The notes beneath the pieces are model-generated. The model worked only from the letters and a program-made list of their open reading frames with translations. It ran no database searches and was not told where the DNA came from. The position numbers and the translations under genes were made by a program. 64,000 nucleotides of DNA from Lenzites betulinus (Eukaryota > Basidiomycota > Agaricomycetes > Polyporales > Polyporaceae), in NCBI GenBank assembly GCA_022264855.1, contig JABYQU010000007.1:186001-250000 (forward strand), given 5' to 3'. Positions 3,001-24,567 of this stretch are shown here, piece by piece (within the stretch, counting starts at the first letter, position 1; every line of letters starts with the position of its first letter).

Positions 3001-4096
3001 CCACATCTTAGCCCGTTCGAATGCCAGGGTGGCCTCCCCGTACTGCTTTTTGTCGAAAAGACTCTGGGCTACCTCTGCCCACTCCTCCCTGCTGGACGAT
3101 ATGGCTAAGCGTGGCATAACAGTTCCTGGGGTATGGCTCTTGATCACGCCGGCATGGTCCCAGAAGATCTGGCACAGAATGAGAAACGGTAATGCTCCGA
3201 AACAAATGTGCACTTACTCGCATAGGAACTCCCCGTTGCGAGTGATCTATAATCCAGAGGTTCATCCGTGCTCGCGTGACGGCAACGTACAAGAACTTCA
3301 ACTTTTCATATAGAAGGGGGACATTATTTGCCTAACATTATCCAGTCCGTGTTTGTGTGTACTCACCTCTCGACATATGCCGCTGTGGCGAGCATGCTCA
3401 AAGGCGGGGGTCGCATGGCCCGGGATGCCGTCCAACACAATGCGCCACCGCTGCGAGTCCTCCGAGGAGTCTTCGAATGGATCATAGAGCAAGACCTACA
3501 CCAAAGAGTCAGTAGTTATGTTTGTAGAAGTTCTGATAGCACACGTACATCATCAAATTCAAGCCCCTTACTCTCGGCAATGGTTCTAAGGGCCCGAGGT
3601 CTTATGGAACCACACTTAACAATTATAGCGATGAAAGTACGCACAGGACAATTCCAACTTGACCAACTTGGGAGCGCAGCTTCTGCTTTGCTGTAGAGTC
3701 CCGGACTAGGATGCCTATACGCGAGGATATGATCTTAAGCATGCAGATGGCAGCAGACAACGTAAATAGTAAAACGTACATTGATGAGCTCCAAATTCAA
3801 CTGTGTTCCCGCTGTGTAGATAGTGTTATGTCTGAGTAATGTTGTTATAAGGCGCCGCAGAAAGGACAGACTTACGACTCATCTGAAAGAAATGTTTCGA
3901 AGTTTGCTGAGGCGTCATCCCAAAAGAAGGTGGGTTTTGGCCCAGCTGTCATTCCCTGCTCTGGGGGTAGCACGTCGACGGAGTTGGGCCATAAGCGGGT
4001 GATCAACTTGACTATGGCTGCGGCACAATCTACGATTCCCGCATGGGAACGATAGTTAGCCGTTAGGTGATACATTCTCGGCCCATGGCGAGGCGA
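1..4096 (-). CDS. TRANK1-like UvrD/Rep helicase, 3' half, cut by the window edge
   Basis: Continuation of the gene that starts at 28288. It resumes after a CAG acceptor at 4097-4099 in the correct phase: the upstream exon ends FLYEH and this one begins SPRHGP, leading into the conserved LTANYRSHAGIVDC motif. Further exons: 4096-3876, 3811-3780, 3714-3645, 3585-3549, 3495-3367, 3301-3218, 3168-2582, 2528-2144, and 2093 onward. Helicase C motifs are visible: ESKGLEFDDVLLYDPFEDS and LKFLYVAVTRARMNLWIID. After these comes an alpha-helical region of TPR-like repeats (about 3170-2140, rich in Ala/Glu/Tyr, for example AAQHYAFAGNNKEAARAFHAA). Exons left of about 1960 stay open in overlapping frames but I did not phase them. 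The C-terminus lies outside the window. The gene looks intact despite the insertion, so it is called a CDS and not a pseudogene. Confidence 0.85.
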
Positions 4097-4115
4097 CTGA
4101 GCGGTAACTTTGCGA

Positions 4116-4124
4116 GTTGTATAC
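4116..4124. repeat. Target site duplication, left copy (GTTGTATAC)
   Basis: Nine bases identical and in the same orientation as 24492-24500, immediately outside the left TIR. They lie in the host intron, 19 bp from the 3' splice acceptor of the TRANK1-like gene (CAG at 4099-4097 on the minus strand). Confidence 0.88.
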
Positions 4125-4299
4125 ATCAGTTGTTGCAACGTTCTAGGTGTATTAAATAGCGGGAGTTGCAACTTCCGCGGTTTAAGGCCAAATAAGCGCC
4201 GTTGGGCACTGCCACCGACGCGCGAGATGCACGCGCCTATCTGCACTTGCAGCCAGCGGCTATTGTAGTTGCAGCCACGAAAAAAATAGCATTAACGGG

Positions 4300-4359
4300 A
4301 ATTGAACGTCGAACGTGTGCAAAACGTAGTATTAGTGAAACGCGCGAGCCACTACGCTA
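4300..4359 (-). other. tRNA-like block with Pol III A and B box-like motifs, left TIR
   Basis: On the minus strand, TAGCGTAGTGG (4359-4349) matches the tRNA A box pattern and GACGTTCAATTCC (about 4310-4299) resembles a B box. Their spacing of about 40-45 bases is like that in a tRNA gene. No clean cloverleaf forms, so this is not called a tRNA. Confidence 0.4.
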
Positions 4360-4625
4360 CAGAGCTGTACACAATACTGAACTGTTAATGGAATACATCA
4401 AGATACTCCTCACTACGGCTACTTACGCCCCATCATACCCCGCAGACCCATGATCGACTTCACCCCGCGTGCCTGCCCCTCCGATCGAGTATACTGTGTG
4501 CCTGTGGGTCGACGTCCGATCGCGTACAACGAGTCAGTTCCAAACCCGCCGCACCGCACAAAACACGCATATTATTTACCCATACTTGCATTCCGAGTAC
4601 AGTAAACTACTTCATCCCGCCGTAA

Positions 4626-5144
4626 TCAAAAGTCGTTCACGTCATCGAACGTTGCGCTCGCCCACCCAAACGCGCGCGCGAGGCGCGTCTTCACGCTGTA
4701 CGAACGCGTCAATGTAATAGACCGTTAGCGTCAATGTAATAGACCGTTAGCATGTGATGAAGACCTACTAATTTTGACGCGATCGCTCCATCTTGTGCTT
4801 ATGATCCTGCAATAAACGTGTTAGCAACAGTAGCAGCGAGGGAACGGTCGCTTACCATGTGCAACACGAAAGTTCCTCCACCCCAGCGCGCGGGGACCTT
4901 GTACCTAAATTCTACTCCTGCGCGGCTGATCTCGAATCCTAGCTCTACCATGGCCTACGGACATGTTAGTGAACGTACCCACGGAAAGGCCGCCATACTC
5001 ACCTGATTGAAGTCCTTCCAGTCAAAAGCGCACCGCGCGTTCTTGTTCGATTTGAAAACCGACTGGAGCACCTACTAACCTGTCAGTACTATACGCCCTC
5101 ATCCCGTTCTCGCTGACCTTTTGCGAATCTCCAGTGAGCGGCAT
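4626..5144 (-). CDS. TIR-embedded 100-aa protein, left copy
   Basis: Five exons, all GT-AG: 5144-5118, 5071-5003, 4954-4856, 4806-4769, 4695-4626 (stop TGA). The phases close to exactly 101 codons. The product has no family I recognise. It contains FDWKDFNQ, an RYKVPARWGGG stretch, and ends FDDVNDF; it is rich in Arg/Lys and aromatic residues, with no membrane segment. It points outward toward the element end. The same gene is found in the right TIR with identical exon lengths, and the two proteins differ at 6 of 100 residues. The last intron is 73 nt here against 51 nt in the right copy because of a 22-bp duplication. A role in end recognition or element control is possible but is only inference from location. 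Confidence 0.75.
4706..4749 (+). repeat. 22-bp tandem duplication in the left TIR
   Basis: Two perfect copies of a 22-bp unit (4706-4727 and 4728-4749) beginning GCGTCAATGTAATAG. They lie in the last intron of the left TIR gene and only one unit-like copy exists at the matching place in the right TIR. The duplication therefore arose after the two TIRs last became identical. Confidence 0.9.
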
Positions 5145-5289
5145 GGAGCAGTCGGTAGTCGCGGATGGGATGCGGCGTCGCGGTTCGAGCGAGTGGCCGA
5201 GAGGCGGGGGCGCGGCGCGAGGCAGAGGGGTAAGGGCTTCGAGTGAGCGGCGTCGTCGAGTGACAGGCGTCCAGAGAACGGCGCGTTCG

Positions 5290-6430
5290 CGGTTCGAGCG
5301 AGGGTCCGAGAGGTGCGAGCGGAGAGCGGTACGGCCGCGGGAGAGGCTGCGAGGGCGGCGCGAGAGAGCGCGGTACGGCGCGCTGTCAACGTAGGGCGCG
5401 AGCGCTCCGTCGAACGGGTCGTACCGCCTAGATTGAGCGAGGGCGGCGAGTGCGGCGGGAGAGATGGCGAGTGCGGCGGGAGAGATAGCGAGGGCGGCGG
5501 GAGAGGCTGCGAGGGCGGCGCGAGAGGCAGCGAGGGCGGCGCTGTGTCGACGTAGGGCGCGAGCGCTGCGTCGCACGGGTCGCGTGGCCTTGAGTTGGGC
5601 GAGGGCGGCGAGGGCGGCGGGAGAGATGGCGAGGGCGGCGGGAGAGATGGCGAGGGCGGCGGGAGAGATGGCGAGGGCGGCGGGAGAGGCTGCGAGGGCG
5701 GCGCGAGAGAGGGCGAGGCGAGGGCGGCGCGAGGCAGCGAGGCGAGGGCGGCGCGAGAGGCAGCGAGGACGGCGCGAGAGAGCGCGAGGCCAGGGCGGCG
5801 CGAGAGAGCGCGAGAGAGCGCGAGGGCGGCGGGAGAGGCTGCGAGGGCGGCGGGAGAGAGCGCGAGGGCGGCGGGAGAGGCTGCGAGGGCGGCGCGAGAG
5901 AGCGCGAGGCGAGGGCGGCGGGAGAGGCTGCGAGGGCGGCGGGAGAGAGCGCGAGGGCGGCGGGAGAGGCTGCGAGGGCGGCGCGAGAGAGCGCGAGGCG
6001 AGGGCGGCGCGAGGCAGCGAGGCGAGGGCGGCGCGAGAGAGCGCGAGGGCGGCGCGAGAGGCAGCGAGGACGGCGCGAGAGAGCGCGAGGCCAGGGCGGC
6101 GCGAGAGAGCGCGAGAGAGCGCGAGGGCGGCGGGAGAGGCTGCGAGGGCGGCGGGAGAGAGCGCGAGGGCGGCGGGAGAGGCTGCGAGGACGGCGCGAGA
6201 GAGCGCGAGGCCAGGGCGGCGCGAGAGAGCGCGAGAGAGCGCGAGGGCGGCGGGAGAGGCTGCGAGGGCGGCGGGAGAGAGCGCGAGGGCGGCGGGAGAG
6301 GCTGCGAGGGCGGCGCGAGAGAGCGCGAGGCGAGGGCGGCGCGAGGCAGCGAGGCGAGGGCGGCGCGAGAGAGCGCGAGGGCGGCGCGAGAGGCAGCGAG
6401 GACGGCGCGAGAGAGCGCGGCACGGCGTCG
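5290..6430. repeat. GC-rich subterminal minisatellite inside the left TIR
   Basis: Dense tandem array built from units such as GAGGGCGGCGGGAGAGGCT and GAGGGCGGCGCGAGAGAGCG, alternating in blocks of roughly 18-27 bp, with longer blocks of about 110-180 bp repeated as well (for example 5755-5930, 6045-6190 and 6185-6310). It leaves long open frames on both strands (up to about 400 codons of Arg/Ala/Glu/Gly or Ser/Arg/Pro repeats). I take these as artefacts of a repeat whose unit length is a multiple of three. Confidence 0.85.
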
Positions 6431-6779
6431 GACAGCGGGGTACAGCGAACTGGGCGTCGAACGGGTCCGCGTGGGCGGCGCGACACAGCGCGGTACGGCG
6501 TCGACAGAGAGCGCGGCTTCAGGTAGCGCGAGAACGCGCCAAGGAACAGCTACGCGTGCGCTACATTGAGCTAGAGGCGCGAGCGTGGGGCGAGAAAGTC
6601 CGATACGGCGTCGTCGGAGACGAATACAGCGGGGAGTCGAGTTTGTGCCAGATCGCGGCGAAGAAGTTTTGTCTAAGGACTATCAAGAAGTGCGCGCGTT
6701 AATAAATGAGGCCTCACAAGCCGTTCACGCCCGAACGCGTCCCCCAATCATTGAATACATCGTGCTTTACAGAGATTAG

Positions 6780-8746
6780 CTACTTCCGTGCACGCTTTCT
6801 CGGATTCCTCTCCGGTGTCTCAGTCATAGGCAGAGCGAGGCCCTCGATCTCCAGACCGACGTGACGGAGGTCGGCCGCACCCGGGGGGCGCACGAGTATC
6901 GTGTGGGTCGATTGGTCGATGTGAAATGAGGAAGCAGTACGCCGCGGGCGCCACTGCGACGTCTTCGGGTCCCACATATCCACGATTTCGAGCGGGGCGA
7001 TGAGGTCCCATAGCCCGCTGTTGCGGATGTAGACGTTGCGCGTAGAGGGTAAGCGTTCTTTAACGCAGTGAGCGCGTACGAGGTTCTGTAAGTCTGTGTC
7101 AGTCTCACTGCGGTAGTAGGCGGCTGGATCAATCGCGCTTACCGGCCTCCAGACAACAAAAGTCACTGCGTCAACTGTGCGCTGACGCTGCGAGATCTTC
7201 TTCTCGTGCAGCACCGCCTCACCCCCTGCCCCAGCTTGTCGTTCCAGCGGCTCAGCTAGTATCGCCAGTGCATTGAGGACCTTTCCTAGTGACGGGCACC
7301 GAAACGCGGAGGGATGTCGCACGATGAGGGCCAGGTCGTCCGCCTTGACCTGGATCCCGCGCGTTCTGGAATGTCCGTCGAGCCAACCCATATCGTCCGG
7401 GTGCCATACATCTATTTTCCCATTTATCCCGGAGAACATCGGGTAGTCGTCGAGTAGACACATGGAGCTGCATCGCACTCGCACTCGAATGAAGGAGGGC
7501 AAAATGCCGTTCTGCAAGCGGTGGTCAGCGGAGTGCACGAAGTATTTCTCCTATTGCTTACCATCGCCCAATAAACGATGGTTACGAATCGCTGTCCAAC
7601 CAAAGTAAGCGGAATTCCCGTGAGTTGGCAAATGCGCATGTACCATGTTGAGATCCTGCCAATTGTGTTCGTCTTCCTCCTGGTAACGTATCGCTAGCTA
7701 AGATGCTTACTATCAGCCTGTAAGTCAAGCCTTGCAAAGGCAGATACATACTATGTAAGGATCGATCCGATGTAACACCTGTGAACTGGTCAGCATTGGA
7801 AGGGCACATTTCGTACGAGTCCTCACTTCGTGTGAGTGCTCCTCAGGCACACCATGTATATCCTCAAGCTCCATGGACGCCAGTGTGAAGTGCTGCTCGT
7901 ACTCGTCGTCGGAATATCCCTGGTCAAGCGCATCGTTGCCGTCAAGCGTTTCGGTCGCACTACGGCCCCCCTCGTCGTCCGAGAGCTCAATAACTTCATC
8001 TTCCAAAGCCGCAGCTGCGTTCGAAGGTCCCGCTCGTGCGTTTGACGATCGCGTCCTGGTGTTTAAGGTACCCGCTCGTGCATTGGTACCACTGCCTCGA
8101 TTGGCTACATTCTGTGCACGAGGCGGTGAGCGACGGACCCCCGACCATACTAATGGTATCACTTACCGCGAAAGGCATTTCGTTCAGGTGTAACGCTTGT
8201 TCTTCAAGCGTTCCTTCCTCTAAAGCCAATCGCATAGCCATAGCGGCATCGTTTGCGTCCAGCTGTATGCCACATATCAGGCCGGTGCCTGCGCGCTGAG
8301 CCAAACGTACTCACCTGGGATCCACCCGCTCTTCTCATGCCAGCATCCGGACGTCTTGCCTTGCCCGCCGCGATGTCGCTCGCTCGTATCGTTTCTATCT
8401 CCAGCAGTAGCTCGTCGCTGGGCCCGTCCTGCATCGGGATTACAAAGTGATTGTTGGTACACTATCAGAATGTCAGCCGGTCAGTCGCTCGCTGCTTGAA
8501 ACGCCCACTCACGATGTAACCGGTAGCCCCCGCGAAACCCTGCTTGTACAGTGTGCCTCTGGGTCTCATTTCCAAACCGCATACTTTACATATCACATTC
8601 GTCGGGGATGCGGACGCCGGGGTTTTTTGGCAAGCCTCTTTGAGTTCTGTGCTGTAGTCGAGCCGCTTGCTATCGCTCCGCTGTCTAATACCTGGATGTC
8701 GGTAGAGGCGTAGTTTGGGATCGTGGATGTCGATGCGCTCTGACAT
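6780..8746 (-). CDS. KDZ-element cargo gene A: 566-aa unknown protein, CxxC motif and repeated W-module
   Basis: Six exons with closing phases: 8746-8513, 8461-8315, 8262-8167, 8111-7752, 7693-7562, 7511-6780; 567 codons with stop TAG. Start chosen as the ATG opening a dense coding stretch. Not a family I recognise. Exon 1 holds CKVCGLEMRPRG, a CxxC pair. The middle is acidic (VIELSDDEGG) and resembles a SUMO-interaction or NLS-flanking linker. The last exon carries two copies of a roughly 70-aa module with an I-V/D-x-W-D/H core (KIDVWHPDDMGW and IVDMWDPKTSQW). Each is preceded by a strand-like VTIVYW or VTFVVW. It ends in a basic tail RNPRKRARK, a likely nuclear signal. The same module pair occurs in cargo gene B 211 bp upstream, so the two are probably distant paralogues. 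Confidence 0.7.
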
Positions 8747-8957
8747 GGCGGCAGGTGCGAAGGCGTCAGGCAAATTTTTGGCAGCACGGAATACCCTGTA
8801 ACAGGCCGTCTCGGGATGTCCCGTCCTTTGTGTGCTTGCTTTCGCGCTACATCCATGGATTTCAAGGCCCAAGTACACGGCCTAGACCCTCGGGCCCAGC
8901 CGCACTGGGTTTGCGTTTGGCTTTACAATGTGCTACGGACACTTGTTTAATAACGGT

Positions 8958-11041
8958 TTACGGCGATGGTGCGTCGATGGGGTCGGAGGCAGGAACCTCA
9001 ATGGGGTCGGATGCCGTGTCCCCCATCGTCAGATCGTAGTACTCCCTGGACTGAGTGCGTACTAAGAATACTCGCAACGAGGCTGCGGCCGCCTCTCGCG
9101 CAGCGTACCGCGCCGCGCGCGCTGCCGCGCGGCGGGCTGCACGGTTCGCTACATTAGCAGCTTGCTCGCCATACTCCTCCTCCGCCACTGCAGTCGCGTC
9201 GTCGGAGTCGTAGTCCATCTCACTGATGGACTCTTCCCCCTGGCCAACGATAGGGCCATCGTCGGCCTCCATATTCGCTCCAACTCCATCAACCACCACG
9301 TCCGCTTCACCTGGCTCAGGTGGCCCTGCCTGGGTATCATCGGCTACCACTACGTCGTGATGCACGACGAGGGCCTCGCTGACCAAGTCGAGATCGTGCG
9401 TTGCGCCAGGTTCACCCTCCTCGCTGGCACCCGTCGGGACACTGTTCTCAATATCAGTTGGGCCCTGGGTGCGAGGTCGCTTGTCGTCGCGAAGGGATGG
9501 CACCCCGTCGCTCTCATCTTCCTCTCTCGCGCGCTTTGGCGTCATGGCGTCATGATCGACGTTCTTCGCCTGCCACAGGATACACGTCAGTGTGGACAGA
9601 TGAGGGAAGCGATCGGCTTACGTTGCGGTTCGTTTCGTCCGACTTGCTCGCTTCCCCATCCCCGGTGACTGCGCTAGGTCCTGGCAGGTTGATTTCGCGA
9701 ACGCTGCGCAACTCTCCTGCTTCCTCCTCGCTCCTCGCGGCTATGTCCTCGCTCTGCTCGGCGTCATCTACGAGCTCGCCCACCGTGTCGAGGGAATTGA
9801 CATTGTCGGCGTCGCCAAGCGGAGCGCATGGAGTTTTCTCCTGCAGCCGCTGCTCTCCCAGCTCCGGCGATGTATAGGTCCCCGCGACGCTTTCGGCCTC
9901 TCTAGTCACGGCGTTCAGGGCTGGCAGCTCACTAGCATCTAGGTCGTCGCTTGCGGCTGCAGTAGTTGACCCGAATTTTCCTTCCTCGTCGCCCTCGGAG
10001 ACGGCCACCATCGAGCGGTGCAAAGAGCTGTCCAACCCGCGGTAAATTTCGCCGAAGTCGATAGGGTCGTTGGTACAAGTGGTTGTGGCGGAAGGATGCG
10101 CGTCATCGGCGAGAACAGAGGGAATGGCGTCCGGTAGGCTTGCAACTTCTTCGGAGGGGCGAGGGGCCAAAGCGACGCTGGATTCGGAGGGTTCAGGCAT
10201 GCGCGCAAGACGGGCATCCGGGTTCGGCAGAGCGTCCGCGGGCTCGGATCTACGTTCGCAGTTCGACAGAACGTTGGGCGAGGTGTTGTCTTCGATGGCG
10301 GCGAGCTCCTCTCCAAGTCCTTGGGTCAGGCCAACCTCGAGCTTCTTGACCAATAAAGTGCGTCCGTTCTCCGACAGGGGCAAGTAGGATGCGGCATTGA
10401 CGAAACCCCACTCACATGCGCTGGAGTCCCAAAGGTTGACCGCACCCACGTCGTCGAAGTGAGTTCGCCAGGCCCGAACAGCGCGGGAGTCGACAGCGTT
10501 GTTCAGCTCGCAATCATCGGCGAACTTAGCGAGACAGATGCTCCGGCTAGATGGCATCTTGATTTCGAAAGCCGTGCCTCTAGCTTGCTCCTAGACCAGG
10601 GGTTAGATGCGATTACATGACCAGACGCTCACTTACTGAGTACCAGAACACGACTCGGATTCTCTCCCTGTCTTGTCCGCTGATATGGAGATACTCGGTG
10701 GTCGCAGTGGTGTCTCCAAATCCGACCGTCAGGCTTTTGTAGAGGTCTACGAGGTGCACGCCGAAGTTCTTGCAACGACGAACCCCGAGGGGTCGGATGA
10801 GGAAGACTCGGGGTGGGCCTCCGACGTCCACCTGGCCCTCACGGAATGTCACCATGCGCCACCGCGCTTCCCGCACCTCCCAGACGTCCAGCAGATCGAA
10901 AGGCATTCCCTGTAGCGTCTCCACTAGCCACTCGATGTTCCATAGATAGATGCTGCCCGCACAATGCTCCTCGCCGACTGTGCGCGTGACGGGAACTTCG
11001 TCTTCCTGATGCAGATCAGTACTGGCACCAACCGTGGTCAT
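8958..11041 (-). CDS. KDZ-element cargo gene B: 661-aa unknown protein sharing the W-module of gene A
   Basis: Three exons: 11041-10637, 10590-9622, 9569-8958; 662 codons with stop TAA. The N-terminal third has two W-modules (LLDVWEVREARW near 10890 and AVNLWDSSACEW near 10440), separated by a strand IRVVFWYS, the same arrangement as in cargo gene A. The central 200 residues are acidic and Ser/Pro/Ala-rich, probably disordered. Near the start of exon 3 is a basic cluster TPKRAREED, followed by an Ala/Arg helix (RAARRAAARAARYAAREAAA) that could be a coiled coil or nucleic-acid contact. No enzyme motif is seen. An upstream non-coding exon is possible. Function unknown; nuclear location inferred from basic clusters. 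Confidence 0.7.
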
Positions 11042-11378
11042 ACATGCGACGTACTTTGTGCCAGACCGTTATTTGCGTAGACATTTCTCCACTGAGCAAA
11101 GGATAGACGAGATTAAGGGGGGGCGGGGGGGCGCGGGGATGGACCTGCCTGAATGACTGGACTTGGTGAAGGGTGGCGCGACCCCGGAGCTGCGAACTTT
11201 GCCGCGCAGAGCCCGTGTACACCGCAAAAACTTTCTGTGCCAAGCTTTGCCGATTTATGCGGATGAGCGGCCGATACCAAATTTCCCCCACATGGCTCTA
11301 TGGAATGGCTCTATTCTACGCCCATCGCTATTCCAGAGCCCTCTGACACCCCATTTTTCCCTCGCCATGCAGGTCACT

Positions 11379-13511
11379 CTAACCCTGGCGACGTGATCGC
11401 TTGCTTCGCTGTACTTCCGAAGACGTCTGCGCCGCGTTCACATCTGCGCTCCCCTCCGCGTCCTCGCTCCTCTGATGTTTCTTCGACGACTGAGCCAAGA
11501 GAGCCTGTTTATCTGCTAAGGTCATGATTCTGCTTCATGGTTAGTTGTAGCCCGGGGAAGTCGTGATTGCGCTCACTCTCGGTTTTGATTTTTCCAATTC
11601 GGCTCAACATCGCGACGCGGCCGGCCTTGCGCTACTGTGTTCGGTTCCTGAGACCGGATGGGGACACCAGAGGTGCCCCTCACCGCAGACGCACGAGAAC
11701 GCGCCTTTTTGGTGTGAGCATGCACAAGCGGTTCTGCGGAGTTATCCTCTGCGTGCACTGAGCGTTATGGGGGTTACGCTGTAACAATTCACTTACCAGG
11801 GAGAGAGCCGGTGACGTCTGATCGCCCTTCCTCCCGCGGCGGAGCGGTGAGAGCGCTTTGCGTGCCCACCGCAGCGTTGTTGTTTGAGCTCGTGACGAAC
11901 TGCTGCTCGTCGGGTACCACGGGGGGGACACCCTGCCCCTCAACGGGTGCATCAGTGCGAGACCTATGCATGTGGATGTGGTCGTACGCACCTCTGCTGA
12001 TGCCTCGTCTTCATCCTCGCTGCCTGCATCCTCGACAGTTGAGAGTTCTGGGGACGTGTGCATACCGCGCAAGCTGGGATCCAGATTGTCGTCATGCACG
12101 CTGTGGGGCCGAGGTCCTGGCGTCGCACGTGCTGTCGAAGGCGTCGAAGGCACCGGTCGGTTGCGGCGGGTTTTGCGCCGAGGCGTGGCCGGTAACTGGC
12201 TTGACGAGGGCGCATTCGCCGCGGAGGACGAAGTCCTAGCCATGCTTGGATTTCCTGGCGGCCCACTGGCCGCGCTCGAGGTACGTTGCCCCGCTCGGAA
12301 ACCTAATGATAGTTAGGCCACGCGCAACGAAGTGGGACTTGTTGCTCACGCAGAAGCAATTCATCGACCCTCTTCGTGAACTCGTCTAGCTCCCCGTTCT
12401 CCGGCGCTGTGTCGCTGTTCAGATAAGTACGGGTGGAGTAAGTTGGGCCTACCTGGTGTACACAGTTCGCCCCAGAGAGTGAAAATCATCATCAGCTCTT
12501 CTTCGGTAACCTTGACACTCTTGCACAACCACTGGAGTAGCGAGTCGTCGTGGCGATTCGTGCCCATTTGTGACCTGAGTTGGCGTCATCAAAAAAGCCC
12601 AAGGTCCCTGGGACCTCACTTACATGTAAACATCGCGTTCACCATCCTCGTTCACTCCGGCAAAACAAAAGAAACCACCCCACCCAGTGTTTTGCGCGAT
12701 CATCTGCAAGACCTTGTCCACGGTGGCACCTACAGTAGAGAAACCGCTGCGGCATATCAGGTAACGTGCGCGTCATCGCGCGAAAGGCGTACGCACCAGG
12801 TCGTACCCTCCGCGCCACCGCTCTCCCGACTGGCCTCTGCTCGCTCTTTGTTGCGTTGCGTGGCGGCCTCCATGAATGCTAGGCGTTCGGCATCGCCTAG
12901 ATTGGCCCAAGCTACATGACACAAGTGCCTCCACTCGCCAATGCTCAGCGTGCCTCGCTCGGGTGCCGTTGCATCTCCCTGGAAAACATCGAGCCCGCAC
13001 ACCTCGCGTTCTTTGCGTTTGTGTAATAATTCCTCCGGCACGATACCAACGGCTACGTCGTTGGTTTGTGACTTCTTGCTTCGCTTGGTCTTCACTGTCA
13101 CTTGCTGACCCAGCCACTTGCCAATGGACTGTCATCATATGAGTGAGAACTCATATAATGAGCGAAACATCGCTCACTAACCCGTTTCAAACCGCCCATT
13201 CTCTGCTCAAACTCGGCCTCTGTTTCTGCTGCCCACCTCACCAGGTCGTGTTCTCGATTCGCATCCTTCCGGGTCTTTTTATATCGCTCAGCGAACTCCT
13301 CGGCAGTCTCACCCCGTCGCGGATTCGGGAACCTCGCATGATATGCGTCACATAAGTGATTTGCAACATCGCTGTAGTTGTGCTTGCCCTTAGCCCCGAC
13401 TTTCTTCTTGCCTCGGGCCACGAGGATCTGCACTTCCGGATCTTCGTATTGGTGCACGAGCCATGCGAGCTCTTCCTCGGTCCAGGCGGCGGTCTGGCGC
13501 GAGACATACAT
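11379..13511 (-). CDS. KDZ-element cargo gene C: 572-aa protein with an N-terminal SANT/Myb-like region
   Basis: Nine exons, all phased: 13511-13182, 13104-12797, 12746-12624, 12574-12453, 12406-12350, 12302-11992, 11932-11797, 11757-11577, 11529-11379; 573 codons. The N-terminus (WTEEELAWLVHQYEDPEVQ and a following helix-rich part to about residue 95) looks like a Myb/SANT-type or BRCT-linked Myb fold; this is resemblance only. Residues about 110-330 contain conserved-looking Trp/Gly-rich segments (TGWGGFFCFAG). The C-terminal 240 residues are low complexity with basic clusters (PRRKTRRNR, RSKRSRRQG). The stretch 12303-12349 could be read through to a stop. The GTGAGC...CTAACTATCATTAG intron there is near-perfect and joins what would otherwise look like two genes 59 bp apart. 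A DNA-binding role for the element is inference. Confidence 0.68.
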
Positions 13512-13695
13512 GACGGTAGCAGCTGGGACGAGACTTACCGTATCGCGACGACACCTCCGTGGATCCCCCAGTCGGCAATAGCCGCAATACTTAGCGATCA
13601 CTTCTGTCCCTTTTCGTCAGCGCACACGTTAGCCAAGGATAATACACAGACGCCGCTCACCACTACGTATACATTGCATTTGATAGAGCACATAT

Positions 13696-16140
13696 CTACA
13701 TTACTGGGAAAGGCATAGGTACGACTGGGAGACGCTGATAAACGCGTACAAAGGTCTTCACATAGAACGACAGCGCAGCTCGCCTTACTTCATCGTAGTC
13801 CGCCATGGCTTCGATTTTCTCTACGTCGCTGATGAGACCGACCGGACATTCGGGCCATCGTGTCATGATTCCAACAAACCGCTGAATGAAGATGCGCGTT
13901 CCCGTCGAGTGGCCGGGGTCTTCGGCGGGAGCACGATCGGCCGGGGGCGCGACATGATCTGCGGGAAGAATACTAAGCAATGACCGCCCGCCCCAAACCT
14001 CCGCCACTTCCCGCTCCCTCTCCCAGCGATGGATTTCTTGCCACTGCGGGCGATGGACGAGCAGAGTGTCCAAAGCCATAAGTTCGCTGCGGAAGTTGAT
14101 TTCGTGGCTTTCCCAAAGAACCCACGGTCGGATGTCTGCTGTGGCAAGCTCCCGCGCGGTGAACTTCTGCTGGCGAAACGAAACCGACAGGTCCTCCCGA
14201 TAGGACGGTAGCAGGGCGACCCTTCCAAACAGCCGACAGATCGCATTCCACTCATCCCGACGCCGCTTGTTCCTGCGGGCATCGGAGCTCTCGCCCGCGG
14301 ACGCAGGGACCTCTTTGCCATTGTAATCACCCCACAACGCCGCCCGCCACTCCGCGATAGTCAGCGGCTGACTGGACATCATGGGGTCGAACAGGCGGGC
14401 ACGACAGAAACGGCGGATTCGCAGATGGTTATGGAGGTATCTGAGAATTTTGTCGTCCTTGCGCGCGGCGGCAGCATCCACGGCGTTCTCAGGAATAGGA
14501 GCCTGAGACGAGACCGTGTCCAGCAGGAAGGGGGGGGGGAAAAAATACAGAGCCCCAACTTCCGATCGAGGGACTGGCGAGACGTCGCGCAGCGCGTGGC
14601 GCCAATCGGGATGAAGCGAATAGAAGGGCGAGGGCTGGAAGGATTTCGCGGGTTGGACGGCGCTCGGAGGGGAGGCGACCGGGTTCGAACCCTGATGCGC
14701 AGGAGATGTGCTGGAGGTCGACGCGGCGCCCACCACCGAGTCAGGACCATTAGCACGCCTGGGTCTTTTCTTGGGGGGTGGAGGTGCGGCCTTGGCTGCG
14801 CGCATACCAAGGTGCTTCGCCTGAATATGTCCGTGATTGTCCCTTTGCCGTTTCATCTCCAAGCTGCTCCTCTCGAACTCGTAAACCGCAGGGCTGTCCA
14901 CGGACTCCAAGGGCGGCATATGCGTCCCGCTCACCATCTTAGAGACCGACATGGCCATACTGCGCAACCAATTGCCGGTGAGATTCGCCAATCCTGCAGT
15001 TCCCGCGGCTTGGTGATATATCGCGGGCTGACTTCGTTGCCCTGACATGTCAACAGGAAGGCTGCGAACTTGCACAATCCGCCATATGTTCGTCTGGCGG
15101 GTCAGAGGTTGGAGGAACCAGGTAGGCAAGCCGATGCGGTGCAAGGTTTGGGCAGCGGTGGCGTCGCGGACGAAGGCCCCCAGGACGGGAAGAATATCGC
15201 GTTCATAGGACAGGCGCGAGGACAAGCGCGACACCACCGTATGCAGGTAAGTGATCAGCCCGGCGAGCTCCAACGAGACGCGTTGGATGTGTGCAGCGAC
15301 CGCGACCGCGATGCCAGGAGGGGAGGCGAGCTTGTCCATGCGCTCCACGCACTGCTGCAGTATCATGACGAGCACATGGCCGTGGTCGGCGTAGTCCTTT
15401 GGAAGGTTCATGCTCCTATCACCTTGGTCGGCATCCAACTTGAATGTACGCACTACCGCATTGGCTTCTAAACGCAACCGGTCACGTATGTCCGACTTGA
15501 TGAACCCGAGGCCGCTGACTCCGGTCAAGCGGTCTGGCTCCCACGCAGATTCGGGGGAGAGGCGCTCCCACAGGACCGTACCAGACAACGGGGAGGGCTC
15601 GCGCGGAATGCACGCGACGTGCATCATGTCGGGGACGAGCATTTGAGGCCATCGTGAGTACTCCCTGAGGCCCCAACGGCCATCTTCGAATGTTTCGATG
15701 ACCTCGCGTTCCACGGGATAATCAGGAACGTAGTCCATGTTGGGCGAAGTTATCACCATGGTGGCGAACCCTCCTTGCGCAGCGACTCGACCCTCAAAGG
15801 GAGGACACACCTCCGGTGCTGCGATGAAAGTGAGAGTCATTCCGGTGTCGTAAAGGTATATATACTGACCTGTCCCCCACCGGTTGACCTGGAAGACAGG
15901 AGGCTGCAGAGGAACTTCAGGCTCTGATCGCTGGGCGGCGACTGGTGAGAGCACAGGTGAAAGAACAGAGGCCGACGACGACGACGAAGGAGCAGGGGGG
16001 GCATGTTCAGACGGACGTGTGGGGAGGCTGGAAGTGGTTTAGTATGAATTGTATTCTGTAGTACAAGAGAGCTGACCTCGCGATTGGGCGCCGCGGGGGA
16101 TCCAAATGAGTGCGGGACCAGGAAGAAGGCCCTGATCTGA
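13696..16140 (-). CDS. KDZ-element cargo gene E: large unknown protein (at least 770 aa), N-terminus unresolved
   Basis: A single open frame of more than 750 codons from 15954 down to the stop TAG at 13696-13698, plus coding upstream to about 16040 and a probable 5' exon 16135-16080 (donor GTCAGC, acceptor CTTCCAG). I could not find a convincing initiator ATG. The first in-frame ATG inside the long exon is too far in, so the start probably lies in another 5' exon. The N-terminal 300 residues look folded (IYLYDTGMTLTFIAAPE, WPQMLVPDMMHVACIPRE). The middle is Pro/Ser-rich with a basic run PPPPKKRPRRANG, a likely nuclear signal. The C-terminus has NKRRRDEWNAICRLFG followed by helix-rich sequence. 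I recognise no catalytic motif. It lies head-to-head with the transposase gene across a 1.6-kb gap. Confidence 0.7.
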
Positions 16141-17772
16141 TAGTGAAAGATGAACAGTCAGTGGTCGATGGTCATAGATACACGCGGTACGCACATCGCG
16201 GAGGGCGCATCGTCACGAGACCCGGTCAAGCGGCGGGAATGTTCTGAAGTGTCCCTACCAAATTTATATCAGTCGCCCATATACATTGATGCAGGTGAAG
16301 TGCCGGACATGGCTGGGGTCGGCCGACCCACGCGGGTGGACAGACTAGAGAGAGGCACATCATCGGATTCGATGGAATCGCTGTAGACATGGGTGAGCAG
16401 CGCGATGTTAACGTCTAAGCAATAATCTTTACCGGCTGGAAGACCTGGGAGATGACACTTCGCGGTCACCGCGTGCGTCTCGTAGCGAGTTACCCCTGCC
16501 ACGATTACGAGGGGTGCTGCGCGATCCGGAAGCGCGACGTGATTGAGAGTGCCGGGGCATAACCTACCAGCACAGGTAAGTGTGTGGGGCGACAAATAGG
16601 GTGGCCGCGTGTGGTACCAGTGTGGGAGGGTCAGTGTGCAGGGGCCTAGGTTCCGGAGAAAGTCTTGAGATGCCAGAGGGAGGAAGTCTTCAAGCCGGGT
16701 GCAGCGAGGATATTCCGTCGCTGACCGATGGGCTGTACCAGAACGCGTCAGGCCAGGACTATGCCGTGGACCTTTGACGCGACGGCGATAGAGGGGACGC
16801 TGCAAAAGACTTATACACTATAGTGAGGGGGTATATCAATGTAGTGGCACGTTCACATACCTCAAATGGGGGACGGGACAAAGTGAAGACAAAGATTGAA
16901 AGCCAGAGAGCAGGGAAAAGAGCAGTAAGGGACGTGGCGACGCGCAGGAGAAATAGCGCTCAACAAACAGAGTGAGGAGTCACGTGCGCAGGCTGATCCA
17001 GTGACTTGCTCGGGCGCTCCCCCGCATTTCATCATTAAACGGGTTGGTTCACCACGCTCGTGCTACGTAACATCATCTTGGGCCACGCCATGCGCGGTGA
17101 CTCGGTTCGGACATCCATACCCTGGTACGTGCATGCGAGACCGGTATCTATGCGAACGCACGGTCACTAACCTCGGGCGCAAGAGCCCCGTGCACCCCTG
17201 GCCAGCTATTCTTCAAGGCTAGCATCAAGACAACCATGCTTCAAGAGCACCGGGACTCTAACTCTTACCCCGACGGACCCATGGAATGGTAACACTCCTG
17301 CCATAGGCTGAGTGCTACCCTCTTCCCCGGATGCGTTCAGCTGGCATGGCCACCTGAAAACCGCTTCGGAATATCAACAATACGTGCCCAACGCGGCTTG
17401 AACGCAAGTGACCGGGAAGACGGGAGGGAGGACAACTAGGGAGAGGAGGCACGAGCATTCTGGTATGTCCACAGGGCAACTTCGGGAGGGACAAGATAAT
17501 CTAACTTTCGGTGTGCTAACACACTAGCAGCGATTAGCGTTGCGTATAGACCAACTCGGCACAAACCACATCACTCGTATCGGTAGGGAGGTATTTCGAA
17601 AAGCAGGAGGGTATATTCTCATAGCAAGCCAGTCAGAATAAAGTGCTACTCTTGTACATAAGAAATCTCATGCAGGACGTTGTGGCAAAACAGCCCATTA
17701 CTTAGCGCTCGCACTCTTTCTTTTCACCGCATTGCTGTTACACTCAAAGCTCATTGAATATTCTTGCCGGCG
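16141..17772. other. Divergent intergenic region inside the element
   Basis: Between cargo gene E (-) and the transposase (+). Both genes must be promoted from here. I see only short open frames without the codon texture of the neighbouring genes, so nothing further is annotated. A missing first exon of gene E may lie at its left end. Confidence 0.5.
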
Positions 17773-20700
17773 ATGGTTAAAGGGCGGAAGCGGAAAAGCG
17801 GGCTCGCTGGGGTGAGATATTCGACGTCAGATCTATTCCCCAACAAAAAATTGCGATTTGGACCATGCACGCCGTTTGCCCCTGTCGCGGAGTCGCACAA
17901 CATGACGGAACGGCCTGTAGGGTGTGAGGATCAGGTGGACCTGGATCCGGAGCCATTGGGGGGCGATGGGCCAAGGGGCGGGAGGGGCGAGCCAGCGAGG
18001 ATGACGGAGGAGCCGATGGTAAGTGCTCTTCTTCTTCCTGGCACTACGTCGCTCAGCTCAGCGATTGCTCCAGGGACGCACGCTCATCGACAATCGTACC
18101 ACACCTCAAGCCCCAACATCAGGTACCGAGCCTCGTTTGGCGTCGACCTCCAAACCACGCTGGCTGGCAGCGACAATCGAGGCGCTCTCCGCACATGCAG
18201 ACTCAGGAGTAAATGGGGGGTCTCGATGGAACCCAAAGAGGTGGCGCCTGAAGTGGTTGGGCAGCGCCGGCAGTACATCTGCGGTCACTTTGGAAGACAT
18301 GAATACCATCGCGACGAGCGAGGTGTCACTCCACTCGCGTGGGATGGAGACCAGTACAGTCGCAGGGGGAGCGTCCAACACCTCGATAGGGGACCACCCA
18401 GAGGAACGGTCAGAAGGCACAAGATCACATGAGGACGATATTGGTGGCTGGCATGTGTGGGAGACGGAGGACGGCGACGTACGACGTCCTCCACAGGTGC
18501 CGCGGGGGCAGGCGCACATGGTAAGTGGGGCGAGGAGAAGGCAAGCATTGCGCTGATGCAGAACACTCTTAGCCATCCGTCAAAATGGCGCAATTTCGTG
18601 AGCACTACGAGTCTTCCGCCCAACTCTTCATGGACCGGCGTGAGGCCCCCCCTACTCAGCTCGCGGAATGTGCGAAGTGCGGCGGAAGAATAAGGGACAA
18701 TCCTCAAGGTCGGCACACGCTATATCGGTGCATAGATTGCCACCAAGTGGGAGAACGATGTGTGGATTGCATCATCGCGTCTCATGAAGAGCGACCGTTC
18801 GACCGAATCAGGATGTGGAATGAGGACCTGGGTTTCTGGGAGAAGACGAACATCGCGGAGCTGGGCTTCGTCTGGTCACTTGGTCATGGGGGAACTGCTT
18901 GTCCGCGCAACCATTCGCCATCCCGGGCGATGGTTTTTTTACACGAGCACGGCATCATGGACTTGAAGGTCAAGTTTTGCGCGTGTCTGAACGCCGACTC
19001 GGATGCCGCCCAGCTCATTGAACACGGTTGTTGGCCCGCGACGTGGCACACACCACACACCGCTTTTTCACTGACGGCGATGGCGACATTCCATGGCTTA
19101 GAGCTCCAGGCCACAGTGAACGTGCACGACTATGTCAAGCTCTTGTGCCGCATGACAGATGGTATCGCACCCGACAACGTGAAGGTTCGTCATGAAGGAC
19201 ATGCACATAGTGAACCAGCTAAAATGATTTTAGGACCGCTATCGCGAATTCAACTCGAGTATGCGCGAATATCGTCAAGTGCGCGCGCGGAGAAGAGGTG
19301 GTGTGGAGATGCATGCGACGCCGAAATCGGGTGAACTCGCAGTGTTATGCCCAGCGTGCCCCCAGCCCGGTATCAACATGCGACCTGGCTGGCGGGAAAG
19401 GAAACATCCGTACAGGTGCGACATCGACGATTAGCTAACGTGCTCTGACTAACGGTGAAAAGATATATCGACGCCCTGACGTACTCCATCGACGGCAACT
19501 TTCATCTCGGGTCGAAAGCCAAAGAGACAGACGAGGCCGACGTTGCTTTGAGCGAAGGCGCAGGCTATTTCGTCAACTCCAAGGACTTCAAGACATATCT
19601 CGAGAAAGCGCCGGAACCACCCGCAGAGGTGAGCACGCAAACCAGAGTCCGTGACGAGGCTAAACTGATCGCATGTCGTCGGCAGCCGACGACATGCAAC
19701 CAGTTCGGAGCTATGGGCACCGGTAAATATAAAGGCAAGATCTCGGGTGTGATAGCGATAACCTGCCGGCACATGTTCCTCCTCCCCGGAGGGATCGTGG
19801 ACTTGCAGTTGGGTGAAAAGTGAGTGATGCGATTGATCGTAATGTTGAGAGATAACTAACAGAGGTGGTGACGGTAGACACCGCTTTGTTGACTTCGCAC
19901 TGGTTTCTGCGATGCAGCGGTACCTGTCACTGCGCCTGCTGGTGGGCACCTACGACATACACTGTCAATACATACGTCACTTACGGAAGCGCCTACGAGA
20001 ACAATTCGGCGAAGTCATTGAAGAACTCGACTCCATACAGTCGTCAGAGCTGCCGGCCATCGTCGCAGGTGTAGGTAAGTACCACCTAGCGATGCACAAG
20101 GGGGAATGTCGACATCGGCACTCTCTCCATTACCTCCCGGGTTCGTGCATGACCGACGGCGAGATGCTGGAACGTATATGGGCGGTGATGAACACGGTCG
20201 CCCGACGCACGAAAGAGATGTCTGCCGGACATCGGCAAGACGTCTTGAACGACCACTATTCAGACCAAAACGTGAGACGGGTGCACAGCATGGGTAAGCG
20301 GGTAGTGATGAACCGCGTACTGTTCACGTATTCATCGTCATAGTACCGGAACTGGTGGAGAAACTCCGGGTAGCAGACGAAATGGCCCACGTGTCCACCG
20401 AATATATACAGTGCGTGGAGAAGACGATCAACCCACACGATTTGGCGACTTGGCGGGAGGCAGAGGAAGAATGGAAGGAAAAAGTCGTCGATATCACGCA
20501 ACATAACGGTCTACCAAACCCGTACGAGCCCCCACAGGATGCAAGTGAGTCCATCTACGATTAGCCCGACGGCTGCAATACTGAATGAATGATTCTCCAG
20601 CTCTCACGTCGCAGGCCATACTGGCGCAGCTCCAACAAGAGCGTCTTGCGGAAGGACAAAGCGGCCCAACGGCTGACGTGAATGTAGTACATACGGTGAT

Positions 20701-21948
20701 GGAATTACGGGATGAGAGGTACGGGTTGCGGATGGCATAATCTGGCACGCGCTGATATATTGACAGCGAAAGGTTGCGCGCACAAGTGATCGCACATAAC
20801 GGTTCGGAAACGGAGCGATCTCGACTGGCGCTCCGACTTGAAAACTATCGCGAACGGGCCGCTGCCTGCCGAGAGAAGTACATGTCAACCATACAAGTGG
20901 CGGTGGACAGTGCGATGGCCGAGGTCGTCCCGAAGGAATCAAGTGAGGCCTTCCCAAATCGAGATGATATCGACGACCTAGAGAAAGGCATCCCTGTGCT
21001 TGCGTCCTCCAAGGGCAAGGCCGTCGATGGAAGCTCCCGGACACCACCACGGAGGTCGCGCGTCATAGAGGAAATGCTGACGATCCTGGACGAGGGGACT
21101 TTCCGATTGCCCTCAGATTGCCACAGCGCCGTGCGCGAACACAAGTCTATGGCGCCTTTTACTCGGCTGGAACGCGCTCTGCGAGAGGGCCAGGCCAATG
21201 AGGCGTTGGACGTGCTGCGCCTGCACCTCACTACTCACCTGGCGCTGACTGTTCGGAAACAGGAAGGGGCCGGTGTCATCCACAATACGGCCGCAGATCG
21301 CCGGCTGCAGGAGAAGCGCGACGTGATAGACAAGTGGAAAGAAAAGTATAGGCATCTGCGCCTCCTGCTTCTCGTGCTGGGGATGAGCGACGACGATAAT
21401 ACGTACAGGCGCCTCAACGACGACGACTGCAAGGCATTTACCCTTTTGGTGAGCGAACAGAAGCTGGGTGATAGCTTCAAGAAGCCTACGTGGATATGGG
21501 GCGACTTCGGCTGGGCAGAGAAGCTGGAGCAGGGGGAGATCAGGGAGTTCGTGGGCCACGGTAAAGTGAATAACTGTGGCCTTATGACTGACACTAACGA
21601 GCGCCATAGCGATGCGTGCGCATTGGTTTAGGCACAACGCACTCAGGACGCGTTGGGAAGAAGAGGTGAATGTGCGCTTGGAGGAGATGTGGCGCACGCT
21701 CGCTTTTTTCGAACACATGGAGCGAACGTGGTTGGTGCGAGCTGATGTGATGGCCAGCAAAGGTACTGCACTGGCCGGAGCCTGTGTGTCTGCGAGAAGG
21801 TACGTATGACGGCAATGTCTATGGCCATCACTGATACCTGCACAGACAAGCTCATCGGTGGACACGGCTGAGGCACAGAGCTGAACAAGCGTTCCCGCGA
21901 ACCATTGATCAAGTAAGGGTTATATCATGGTCAACTAAAACTATCTGA
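17773..21948 (+). CDS. KDZ family transposase with CxC2 cysteine cluster, intact (1206 aa)
   Basis: Twelve exons, phases closing to 1207 codons: 17773-18018, 18062-18520, 18573-19184, 19234-19415, 19463-19628, 19686-19819, 19878-20293, 20344-20544, 20601-20718, 20767-21560, 21610-21799, 21846-21948. A disordered N-terminus of about 235 aa is followed by a zinc-binding cluster at about 268-301 (CAKC, CIDC, CVDC), typical of CxC2-type KDZ-associated cysteine clusters, with LGHGGTACP after it. The core then sh ows LCPACPQPGIN, the first acidic motif YSIDGNFHL (Asp about residue 510), RHMFLLPGGIVDL, YDIHCQY, and DGEMLERIWAVMN, as expected for the KDZ catalytic core. The C-terminal third is helical (WEEEVNVRLEEMWRTLAFF). 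It should cut and join the element ends in the nucleus. No disabling mutation is seen. Confidence 0.93.
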
Positions 21949-23094
21949 CGTAGACACAGAGACTGGGCATGCCCGATAAACCAGCAAGGTCCGCCCTGGC
22001 CACGACAGTTCACGCTTCGGAGGAGGTAGTACGGGGCGCAGTAAATGCGCGGACGGTCGTCCAGGCAATCGGTGAGAAGTAGAGTGCTTCGTGCTGGTGT
22101 AGATGAGGGCGCGGGGTTGAGTCGAAGAGACGGATACATCGAATGTGTAGCAATGTACGTCCGATCGGCAAGGACGTATGCTTTGAAGCTCAAAATAAGA
22201 AGGCGAACCGCAAATATTGTACGCATACTGACTGAACTCGTTAGGTATTGACCTGAGGACCTGATCGGTCACGCAGATATGTGTACTAGGGAACAATGAC
22301 CCGCTTTGTTGCGTCAAGCACGCCCTCCCGCACTGGCTAGAGGCCGTGCCCAGCGACCGGTAGGCCCCCACACTCATGCTCTGCCCGATTACCTCGACGT
22401 GGAAGTCCAGGGCTAGGACGCCGAAGGATGTCGTACCGCACTCGCTGGATGCGAAAGGTTGCGGTACCTACCGCTTCGCCTGGGTGCTGTCGATCCTCGG
22501 GCGAGTGGCCGCGCTGACGTCCAAGCCTATGGGCCCAGCCACGGAGAGTCCGCACAAGGACGCGTTGCGTTGGGTGGCTAGGAGAAATTCGTACGTAGAT
22601 TGTACATTATTATGCGTCCGTGCAACGACTTATCACGCGCCGACTGCTTGCTGCCAGAGGGGGCGCAGACGAGTGCGCCCGTGCACGCGCCAATGCGTCC
22701 GCTCGGGGATGCGGGTGGACACGGCACTGACCTCGATTTGCAGCCGCCGTCGCGGGTGTCGCTGCCTGCCGTCTTGGTACCTCCAGCGCAGCGCAGAGAC
22801 GTCTTGGTACGTCGTGCGCGGATGCGGCGACGGTCGCGGTACCTCGGCGGCCGTGCGCGTGCATTGGGCATCCACACGCCCACACTCCACGCAGAACCGC
22901 GTTCGATCGCGCAGTGTGCACGTCTGGCTCGACGCGGCGCGCACTCTCCGTCTCACCGTCTACCACGACGCGGCGAGCGGGAGGTCGGTCTCTGCGCGCC
23001 AGCGCCCGGCTCGACGCGCGCGAGCTCACCGGCACACCGTGTCGCGCGACACCGACCTCCCGCTCGGCGTACTGCTCTATCTCAACGCCGTACC
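21949..23094. other. Non-coding spacer between transposase and right subterminal repeats
   Basis: No gene recognised. The stretch becomes strongly GC-rich from about 22600 and carries imperfect repeats of CGTCTTGGTAC and CGACGCGGCG motifs. Long open frames on both strands here have biased Arg/Pro/Thr composition and are treated as by-products of the GC-rich repeats. Confidence 0.5.
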
Positions 23095-23450
23095 GCTCTC
23101 CGCTCGGCCCTCTCGTACCCTCGGTCGAACCGCGACCGCGCGCGTCACTCGACGCTTATCCCTCGACGACGCCCCCCACTCGACGCCGGTACCGCTCTGC
23201 CTCGCCCCGCGCTCGCCCCTCTCGGCCACTTACTCGAACGGCGACCGCGCCGGCCTCTGCACGCCTCTCACTCGACGTCCGTCCCCTTCTACCTCGCACC
23301 CCGCTCGCCCCTCTCGGCCACTGGCTCGAACCGCCACCGCGCCGGCCTCTCGACGGCTCTCCCTCGACGACGCCCCTCACACCACGCCGGTACCCCTCTG
23401 TCTCGCGCCGCGGCCCCCGCCTCTCGGCCACTCGCTCGAACCGCGACCAC
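23095..23450. repeat. GC-rich subterminal repeat inside the right TIR
   Basis: About four units of roughly 100 bp sharing CCTCTCGGCCACT followed by CTCGAACCGCGACCGCG (near 23110, 23217, 23309 and 23420). The same GGTTCGAGCGAGTGGCCGAGAGG motif occurs on the left at about 5193-5205 and 5290-5312. The two ends therefore share a motif although the arrays differ in length and unit. Confidence 0.7.
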
Positions 23451-23479
23451 CGCAAGCCCTCCGCGACCACCACAAGCTT

Positions 23480-23977
23480 CATGCCGTTGACTGCCGAATC
23501 TCAAAAGGTCAGCTATCACGGCATCAGCGCGTATGGTACTCACTGGTTAGTAGGTGCTCCAGTCGATTTTCAAATCGAGCAAGAACGCGCGGTGCGCATT
23601 CGACTGGAAGGACTTCAATCAGGTGAGTATGGCAGCCTTTCCGTGGGTACGTTCACTAACATGTCCGTAGGCTATGGTGGAGCTGGGATTCGACATCAGC
23701 CGAGCGGGTGTGGAATTCCGTTACAAGGTCCCCGCGCGCTGGGGTGGGGGGACATTCGTTTTGCACATGGTAGGCATCCGTTACCTCGTTGCTACTGTTG
23801 CTAACTCGTTTATTACAGGATCACAAGCATAAAATGCAGCGATCGCGGCAAAATTAGTAAGTGCTGATAAGTTTCTAACGGTTTATTATATTGACGCGCT
23901 TGTACAGCGTGAAGACGCGCCTCGCGCGCGCGTTTGGGTGGGCGAGCGCAACGTTCGACGACGTGAACGACTTTTAA
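23480..23977 (+). CDS. TIR-embedded 100-aa protein, right copy
   Basis: Exons 23480-23506, 23554-23622, 23671-23769, 23819-23856, 23908-23977 (stop TAA): 101 codons with the same exon sizes (27, 69, 99, 38, 70 nt) as the left copy. The first intron has a TACTCAC branch-like motif before TTAGTAG. Compared with the left copy, 6 codons change the amino acid and 22 change silently (plus a TGA/TAA stop difference), which is the pattern of a protein under constraint. The gene points outward, toward the host intron. Function unknown. Confidence 0.75.
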
Positions 23978-24240
23978 GTATAGGGGATCATGTACGGTAC
24001 TGTACTCGCAAGGCTGAGTAAATGATATTGGTGTTGTATGCGGTGCGGCACGCGTCCTAAGTAGTGCTCGTCATACGCGATCGGACGGCCAGCCACAGGA
24101 ACTCGTCGGACGCGATCGGAGGGGCAGGCACGCGGGGTGAAGTCGATCATGGGCCCGCGGGGTAATATGGGGCGTAAGTAGCCGTAGTCAGAAATCAGAA
24201 ATCTCTAAATGTATTCTATTTACACCACAGTATTGTATAC

Positions 24241-24318
24241 AGCTCTATAGCGTAGTGGCTCGCGCGTTTCACTAGTACTACGTTTTGCACACGTTCCGCG
24301 TTCGATTCGCGCTAATGC
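24241..24318 (+). other. tRNA-like block with Pol III A and B box-like motifs, right TIR
   Basis: TAGCGTAGTGG at 24248-24258 (A box-like) and GCGTTCGATTC at about 24298-24308 (B box-like, with a CGCG/CGCG T-stem). A partial 7-bp acceptor stem pairs 5 of 7 positions and the D-stem is GCG/CGC. The anticodon arm does not pair properly, so the block looks like a decayed tRNA or tRNA-derived sequence carried in both TIRs. Confidence 0.45.
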
Positions 24319-24491
24319 TATATTTTTCGTTGGCTGCAACTACAATAGACGCCCACCTCGCTGTGACTGCAACTTCAGACAGGCGCCCGCGTCTCGCGCG
24401 TCAGTGGCTGTGCCCCAAGGCGCCTATTTGGCTTTAAACCCGCGAAGTTGCAACTCCCGCTATTTATTACACCTAGATAGTTGCAATAACC

Positions 24492-24500
24492 GTTGTATAC
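24492..24500. repeat. Target site duplication, right copy (GTTGTATAC)
   Basis: Direct repeat of 4116-4124 immediately outside the right TIR. It includes the palindrome GTATAC, which could be mistaken for part of the inverted repeat. The 9-base same-orientation match is what marks it as a target duplication. Confidence 0.88.
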
Positions 24501-24567
24501 TCTACAACTTTGCCTGGGGCCTGACACAACGATTGAGTGAAGTCCACAGAGAAGCAGAGGAACATAC

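Follow-up and report, generated by a model that had tools for sequence, protein, structure and literature searches.

The 64,000-nt stretch of the Lenzites betulinus genome analysed here (the window; C76:186001-250000 in an assembly of 37.4 Mb and 108 contigs) contains a KDZ transposon of 20,392 bp, located at 4114..24505 on the + strand. We conclude with considerable confidence that this CxC2-KDZ DNA transposon is complete in structure and probably autonomous, and that it has inserted in a UvrD-like helicase gene, within an intron of 71 nt. This confidence covers the element and its borders and does not extend to the function of the tRNA-like units in its terminal inverted repeats (TIRs). The DNA itself shows the borders, the 8-bp target duplication and short relatives with the same ends, as well as a transposase model without interruptions and a companion gene that is open. 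A first-pass annotation had placed a long inverted-repeat element here and had described it as an intact KDZ transposon in a host intron. Such an element is indeed present at about those coordinates and the description is supported, with the corrections given below.

Borders of the element and its insertion site

The ends of the element were determined by comparison with other members of its family. Family loci were found by a genome search with the left end and then compared together with their flanks; 34 of these loci are numbered L027-L060. The termini of the window element, GAGTTGTATAC and GTATACTCTAC, are common to family copies at unrelated sites. At two-ended loci one end carries GAGTT-GTATAC and the other, read inward, GTAGA-GTATAC. 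Genome-wide we counted 74 occurrences of the terminal pattern (73 exact, 1 with one mismatch) and none of the reversed control. Of the 33 two-ended family loci (window included), 27 have direct copies of GTTGTATAC at the two junctions, and this sequence therefore belongs to the element ends and not to the target duplication. Thus, we define the element as 4114-24505 based on the end comparison across the two-ended loci. Loci with a single recognised end (L040, L044 and L061) and the ends at C47:43 and C68:26007 were left out of the two-ended set. L043 is the only two-ended locus with GAGTT at both ends and has no matching duplication, which suggests recombination between copies.

A perfect 7-bp duplication is seen directly outside the ends in 29 of the 33 two-ended loci (window included). 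As a control, flanks were paired across different loci, and none of 1056 such pairs matched by 7 bp. In the window the duplication is AACTTTGC, with its left copy at 4106..4113 and its right copy at 24506..24513 (both +). It has 8 bp; shifted by one base, the flanks could also be matched over 7 bp. The first-pass annotation had instead taken GTTGTATAC for a 9-bp target duplication and let the element begin after it. GTTGTATAC does stand as a direct repeat at both window junctions, but the same is true of 26 of the 32 other two-ended loci, where the site-specific duplications lie outside GTTGTATAC. We therefore give the earlier duplication and the borders drawn from it virtually no chance of being correct, the real ends being 4114 and 24505.

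The host gene is read from the - strand, and its intron as now standing spans 4097..24567, with the acceptor side at 4097-4113 and the donor side at 24514-24567. Without the element and one copy of the duplication, a GT-AG intron of 71 nt remains, and the reading phase is kept across the insertion (FLYEH / SPRHGP...NYRSHAG). The GT-AG borders and the phase agree with the first-pass annotation; its intron length of 95 nt becomes 71 nt with the corrected borders. The earlier name for the host gene, TRANK1-like, stands weakly: the helicase motif NYRSHAG is present, and in the stretches scanned (2-4105 and 24514-29999) the sole Pfam match is to UvrD_C, with 19.1 bits and thus below its cut-off of 25.6.

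A paralogue of the host gene is located about 20 kb to the left of the window (L063, C76:160001-170000; gene at 160-167 kb). It is colinear with the host gene on both sides of the insertion point and the element is absent from it. Its FLYR and NYRSHAG motifs are separated by a region fitting a short intron. The best-looking intron in this region, GTGAGT..CATAG, has 63 nt, and nine splice pairs keep the frame.

Transposase, companion gene A and short relatives

The transposase gene is found at 17773..22082 on the + strand and yields a model of ∼1233 aa. The model has 11 listed exons without stops, separated by 10 introns of 47-58 nt. Two further introns are placed near the 3′ end, where the last acceptor, 21954, was picked among candidates and the frame closes at 22082. 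The deposited model P0100 (952 aa) covers 77% of the 1233-aa model and a T. pubescens homologue (1153 aa) covers 95% of it. P0100 matches the KDZ domain PF18758 with 154.3 bits over profile positions 3-217 of 217 and the CxC2 domain PF18803 with 91.5 bits, both matches being complete. Across 28 aligned KDZ transposases, chosen from 56 found and including P0100, 34 columns are invariant. The KDZ transposase proposed earlier is present as an uninterrupted + strand model with both domains. In the whole genome, 77 KDZ domain matches were counted, exon by exon. Several of them have equal scores on different contigs (for example C1, C63 and C64), which hints at recent copying or duplication.

Next to the transposase the element carries a conserved companion gene, which we call companion gene A. 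Its main open frame of 780 aa is found at 13696..16038 on the - strand, and the deposited model C2E23DRAFT_901143 (866 aa) adds upstream exons to about 16817. Among 8000 scored candidates we found 99 homologues, 57 of them with a species name; these 57 come from polypore genera. For 14 of the 33 closest transposases (own pair included), a companion A homologue is found on the same contig, as judged by species name and by the length of the longest contig, and 11 of these 14 cases are among the nearest 14 transposases. The comparison sets the 57 named companion rows against the 33 best of the 56 transposase rows, and it measures linkage at the level of the same contig, some contigs being longer than 2 Mb, and not as intergenic distance. 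On C46 a companion A relative is divergent from a KDZ gene, the arrangement seen in the window element; another relative is found at C76:430 kb and a third, on C65, near a related TIR. For companion A, a Pfam scan at E 0.1 gave nothing with P0001 and a single sub-threshold match with P0002; there was also no NCBIfam match and no match to a solved structure by profile at E 1.

The left TIR spans 4114..5322 (+) and the right TIR 23301..24505 (-). They had been estimated at about 1.1 kb and are in fact ∼1.2 kb long. In the outermost 180 bp of each end the motif TTGCAR is found 4 times, where 0.11 occurrences are expected per strand, and these repeats are candidate binding sites. In the proposed mechanism, the transposase would bind the termini together with the repeated subterminal TTGCAR motifs, excise the element and reinsert it with a 7-8-bp stagger. 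It would also be able to move the short relatives in trans.

These short relatives form a size series of 2.7 kb, about 856 bp, 396 bp and 95 bp. Complete miniature inverted-repeat transposable elements (MITEs) of 840-870 bp make up 28 of the 34 loci L027-L060. They form four clusters with a mean divergence of 2.7-4.5%, and the closest pair in each cluster differs by 0.12, 1.9, 0 and 0.12%. Among the flanks compared, the sequence varies from locus to locus. The 396-bp relative L060 is 99.5% identical to the left end of the window element (199 bp) and 95.9% to its right end (194 bp). The shortest relative, L071 (C76:735000-736200), is a 95-bp mini-element with a 7-bp duplication. What it retains is an 83-bp piece of the right end (96.4%) and, of the left end, no more than the 11-bp tip; it may have moved in this form, or its middle may have been lost once it had inserted. 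We infer the family to be mobile because its copies occupy different sites, flanked by site-specific duplications. Recent movement, which the first-pass annotation had suggested for the element, is plausible for the family in view of L060, L071 and the near-identical MITE pairs; these observations leave the insertion in the window undated.

Several observations weigh against our reading of the element. Three of the 33 two-ended loci (L037, L043 and L045) are without a matching duplication, and the window duplication is 8 bp long (or 7 bp, shifted) where those of the relatives have 7 bp. The paralogue L063 supports an empty site without proving it, as it is a different locus. Protein and TIR searches saw one full-length copy in the genome; a DNA search with the 16-kb core missed its own locus and is unusable for this statement. 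Finally, the left and right TIRs are only 82.7% identical over 1232 aligned columns. The same left/right asymmetry is kept in L060, which means that the two ends have kept separate histories and that their identity is no clock. TIR divergence (∼17%) was therefore ruled out as an age estimate.

The sequence could also be intact while the element is silent, another KDZ copy, since lost or diverged, having moved the MITEs and mini-elements. Identity of the MITE ends to the window element is mostly 77-82% at its left end and mostly 81-93% at its right end, as might be expected if another copy had moved them, and no second full-length copy was found. On C65, L062 (C65:746001-756000) combines a single long TIR, which is 86-89% similar to the right TIR, with the companion A relative mentioned above, and no transposase-like match was detected in the 20 kb examined there. 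However, L060 (95.9-99.5%) and the 95-bp element (96.4%) match the window element's own ends, and the transposase model is free of stops. We regard a silent element as a serious alternative, to which we give somewhat less than even weight, and we continue to favor a probably autonomous element.

tRNA-like units in the inverted repeats

Each TIR contains a degenerate tRNA-like unit, in which an A box and a B box are spaced as in a tRNA gene and a T-run follows the B box; both units face outward. The unit in the left TIR is at 4280..4359 on the - strand and faces the left end (A box 4349-4359, B box 4299-4307, A7, equal to T7 on the - strand, 4280-4286). The unit in the right TIR is at 24241..24327 on the + strand and faces the right end (A box 24248-24258, B box 24300-24308, T5 24323-24327). 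The consensus patterns are TRGYNNARNNG for the A box and GTTCRANYC for the B box. These two are the only A/B box pairs in the 64 kb; from 100 Markov-generated windows 0.12 pairs would be expected, or 0.01 with a T4 run. A box pair is also present at each end of all 28 complete 840-870-bp MITEs.

We compared 65 copies of the unit. Fixed box positions (ten positions per copy) deviate in 2 of 650 cells (0.31%), degenerate box positions in 42 of 650 and other positions of the unit in 211 of 4160. The outer flank, which served as the anchor for finding the units, deviates in 9 of 1625 cells (0.55%) and is nearly as conserved as the boxes; the 65 copies are related by descent, and a Fisher value for these counts can therefore not be read as a real probability. 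The boxes are kept between the window and MITE lineages though the sequence between them differs and contains indels.

The units were aligned with host tRNAs, using 20 of the 65 host tRNA matches and 300 shuffles per unit. The unit of the MITE L034 aligns best with a tRNA-Val, and none of the 300 shuffles was as good. For the L047 unit the best alignment is with the same tRNA-Val, and for the C65 unit it is with a different tRNA-Val; in each case 3 of 300 shuffles were as good. The best partners of the window's own units are tRNAs other than those of the MITE units. A tRNA origin of the unit is likely for the family and is most strongly suggested by the MITEs.

Other results weigh against our reading of the units as tRNA-like. 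For the right and left units of the window, 53 and 106 of 300 shuffles, respectively, aligned as well as the real sequence. The right unit matches the tRNA family RF00005 over its whole length (24241-24320) with 20.2 bits (E 0.049, 201 bases), which is below the gathering score of 29, and the C65 unit reaches 16.1 bits (E 0.69, 201 bases) against the same threshold. One MITE unit scanned alone had no RF00005 match at E ≤ 10. Similarly, six loci (five of them MITE copies) gave no RF00005 match at E ≤ 5, and in the whole window no tRNA was found by an RF00005 scan at E ≤ 1, the sole scan of the left unit, or by ARAGORN. A true tRNA gene in the TIRs was ruled out based on these sub-threshold scores and the absence of an ARAGORN gene in the window.

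What the units do, if anything, is a separate matter. With much less certainty than for transposition, the unit might bind TFIIIC or RNA polymerase III (pol III), and it could then mark the edges of the element as chromatin boundaries or yield short outward RNAs. On this account a KDZ lineage would have captured a tRNA into its TIRs, the mirrored, outward TFIIIC/pol III sites would serve as boundaries or promoters that protect or regulate a cargo-bearing transposon, and the MITEs would have inherited and spread these sites. We consider this scenario rather unlikely. We lean slightly towards the units being a passive relic, left when a tRNA was long ago inserted or captured in the TIR and persisting only because the copies are young. 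The sub-threshold RF00005 scores and the scanned MITE unit without a match fit a relic, as do the recent shared ancestry of the copies and an outer flank about as conserved as the boxes (0.55% versus 0.31%). On the other hand, a passive relic does not readily account for the difference between the fixed box positions and the rest of the unit, or for boxes that persist between the window and MITE lineages despite differing, indel-bearing sequence between them.

Internal A and B boxes of tRNA origin are also a feature of tRNA-derived short interspersed elements. The boxes are common to both, whereas here the unit is mirrored outward in both TIRs of a DNA transposon. In fission yeast, the B boxes of inverted-repeat boundary elements recruit TFIIIC. 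As in the element described here, these B boxes are located in inverted repeats that bracket a domain; there, however, the repeats form a fixed host boundary, whereas here they are the ends of a mobile element with putative TFIIIC sites. In the titles and abstract starts given by searches of the open-licence literature aimed at this point, we found no description of tRNA-like units in DNA-transposon TIRs. DINE-1 of Drosophila is described, in an excerpt of the source, as being without pol III signals (PMC2374699).

Cargo, internal repeats and relation to known KDZ elements

Open cargo genes inside the element had been predicted, and open frames are indeed present. Adjoining companion A is companion gene B (12760..13131, -), an open frame that aligns over 97 aa, at 33% identity, with the HMG-box-like half of the Trametes cubensis protein P0078. 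In P0078 this HMG-box-like part (21.6 bits against a cut-off of 22.4) is fused to a companion A homologue. The open frames of cargo region C (9550..11068, -) have no Pfam match at E 0.01, and the 256-aa open frame of cargo region D (6780..7550, -) has no homologue at E 0.001. A weak local match between C and D (23% over 60 aa, E 3e-4) comes from a one-sequence comparison, and kinship of the two was not relied on. A TET/JBP gene was rejected as cargo, as six-frame Pfam scans of 6601-21599 gave no match at E 0.01.

A GC-rich array of ∼21-nt repeats is found just interior to the left TIR (5412..6430, +), and other GC-rich repeats are seen on the right side at 23094-23448. On C50, three copies spaced ∼11-12 kb apart (156412, 167548 and 179191) are 79% like window positions 22458-22689, which are interior to the right TIR.

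The comparisons that follow draw on excerpts of the cited papers. The Cryptococcus neoformans elements KDZ1-3 are ∼9-11 kb long, with TIRs of 139-241 bp and a CxC1 cluster; target duplications of 8 bp and of 4-8 bp are given for KDZ1, KDZ2 and KDZ3 (PMC12810828). Like them, the L. betulinus element has TIRs, short target duplications and a KDZ transposase whose N-terminal part carries a cysteine cluster. It differs from them in its length of 20.4 kb, its ∼1.2-kb TIRs, its CxC2 domain and its conserved companion gene. The Kyakuja elements of Agaricomycetes have a KDZ transposase and 7-bp duplications, and two Laccaria families among them are described as lacking TIRs and as having CA..TG termini and a TET/JBP gene (PMC12730594). 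The present family shares the KDZ transposase with Kyakuja, and its duplications point both ways, with 7 bp in the relatives and 8 bp in the window element. Unlike the Laccaria families, the window element has G..C termini (GAGTT../..TCTAC), long TIRs and no TET/JBP match in the region scanned. Zisupton and Dileera have a KDZ transposase and 8-bp duplications, and TIRs are reported for Zisupton (PMC12730594). The duplication at the window insertion agrees with this length, whereas the relatives have 7 bp. The KDZ domain, the CxC cluster and a duplication of 7-8 bp were all found, and the element thus fits the KDZ superfamily. It cannot be placed in one of the subgroups (Kyakuja, Dileera or Zisupton) by the tests made.

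A definition of the KDZ group depends on complete elements whose borders have been checked. For the L. betulinus element the exact termini and the length of the duplication are now given, together with a companion gene that is conserved; the accompanying short relatives, graded in size, point to the end sequences required for movement. If L071 moved as such, an 11-bp left tip and ∼83 bp of the right end would suffice for movement. If the tRNA-like units work, the family would represent a DNA transposon with mobile insulator or pol III sites, dozens of which are spread through one fungal genome.

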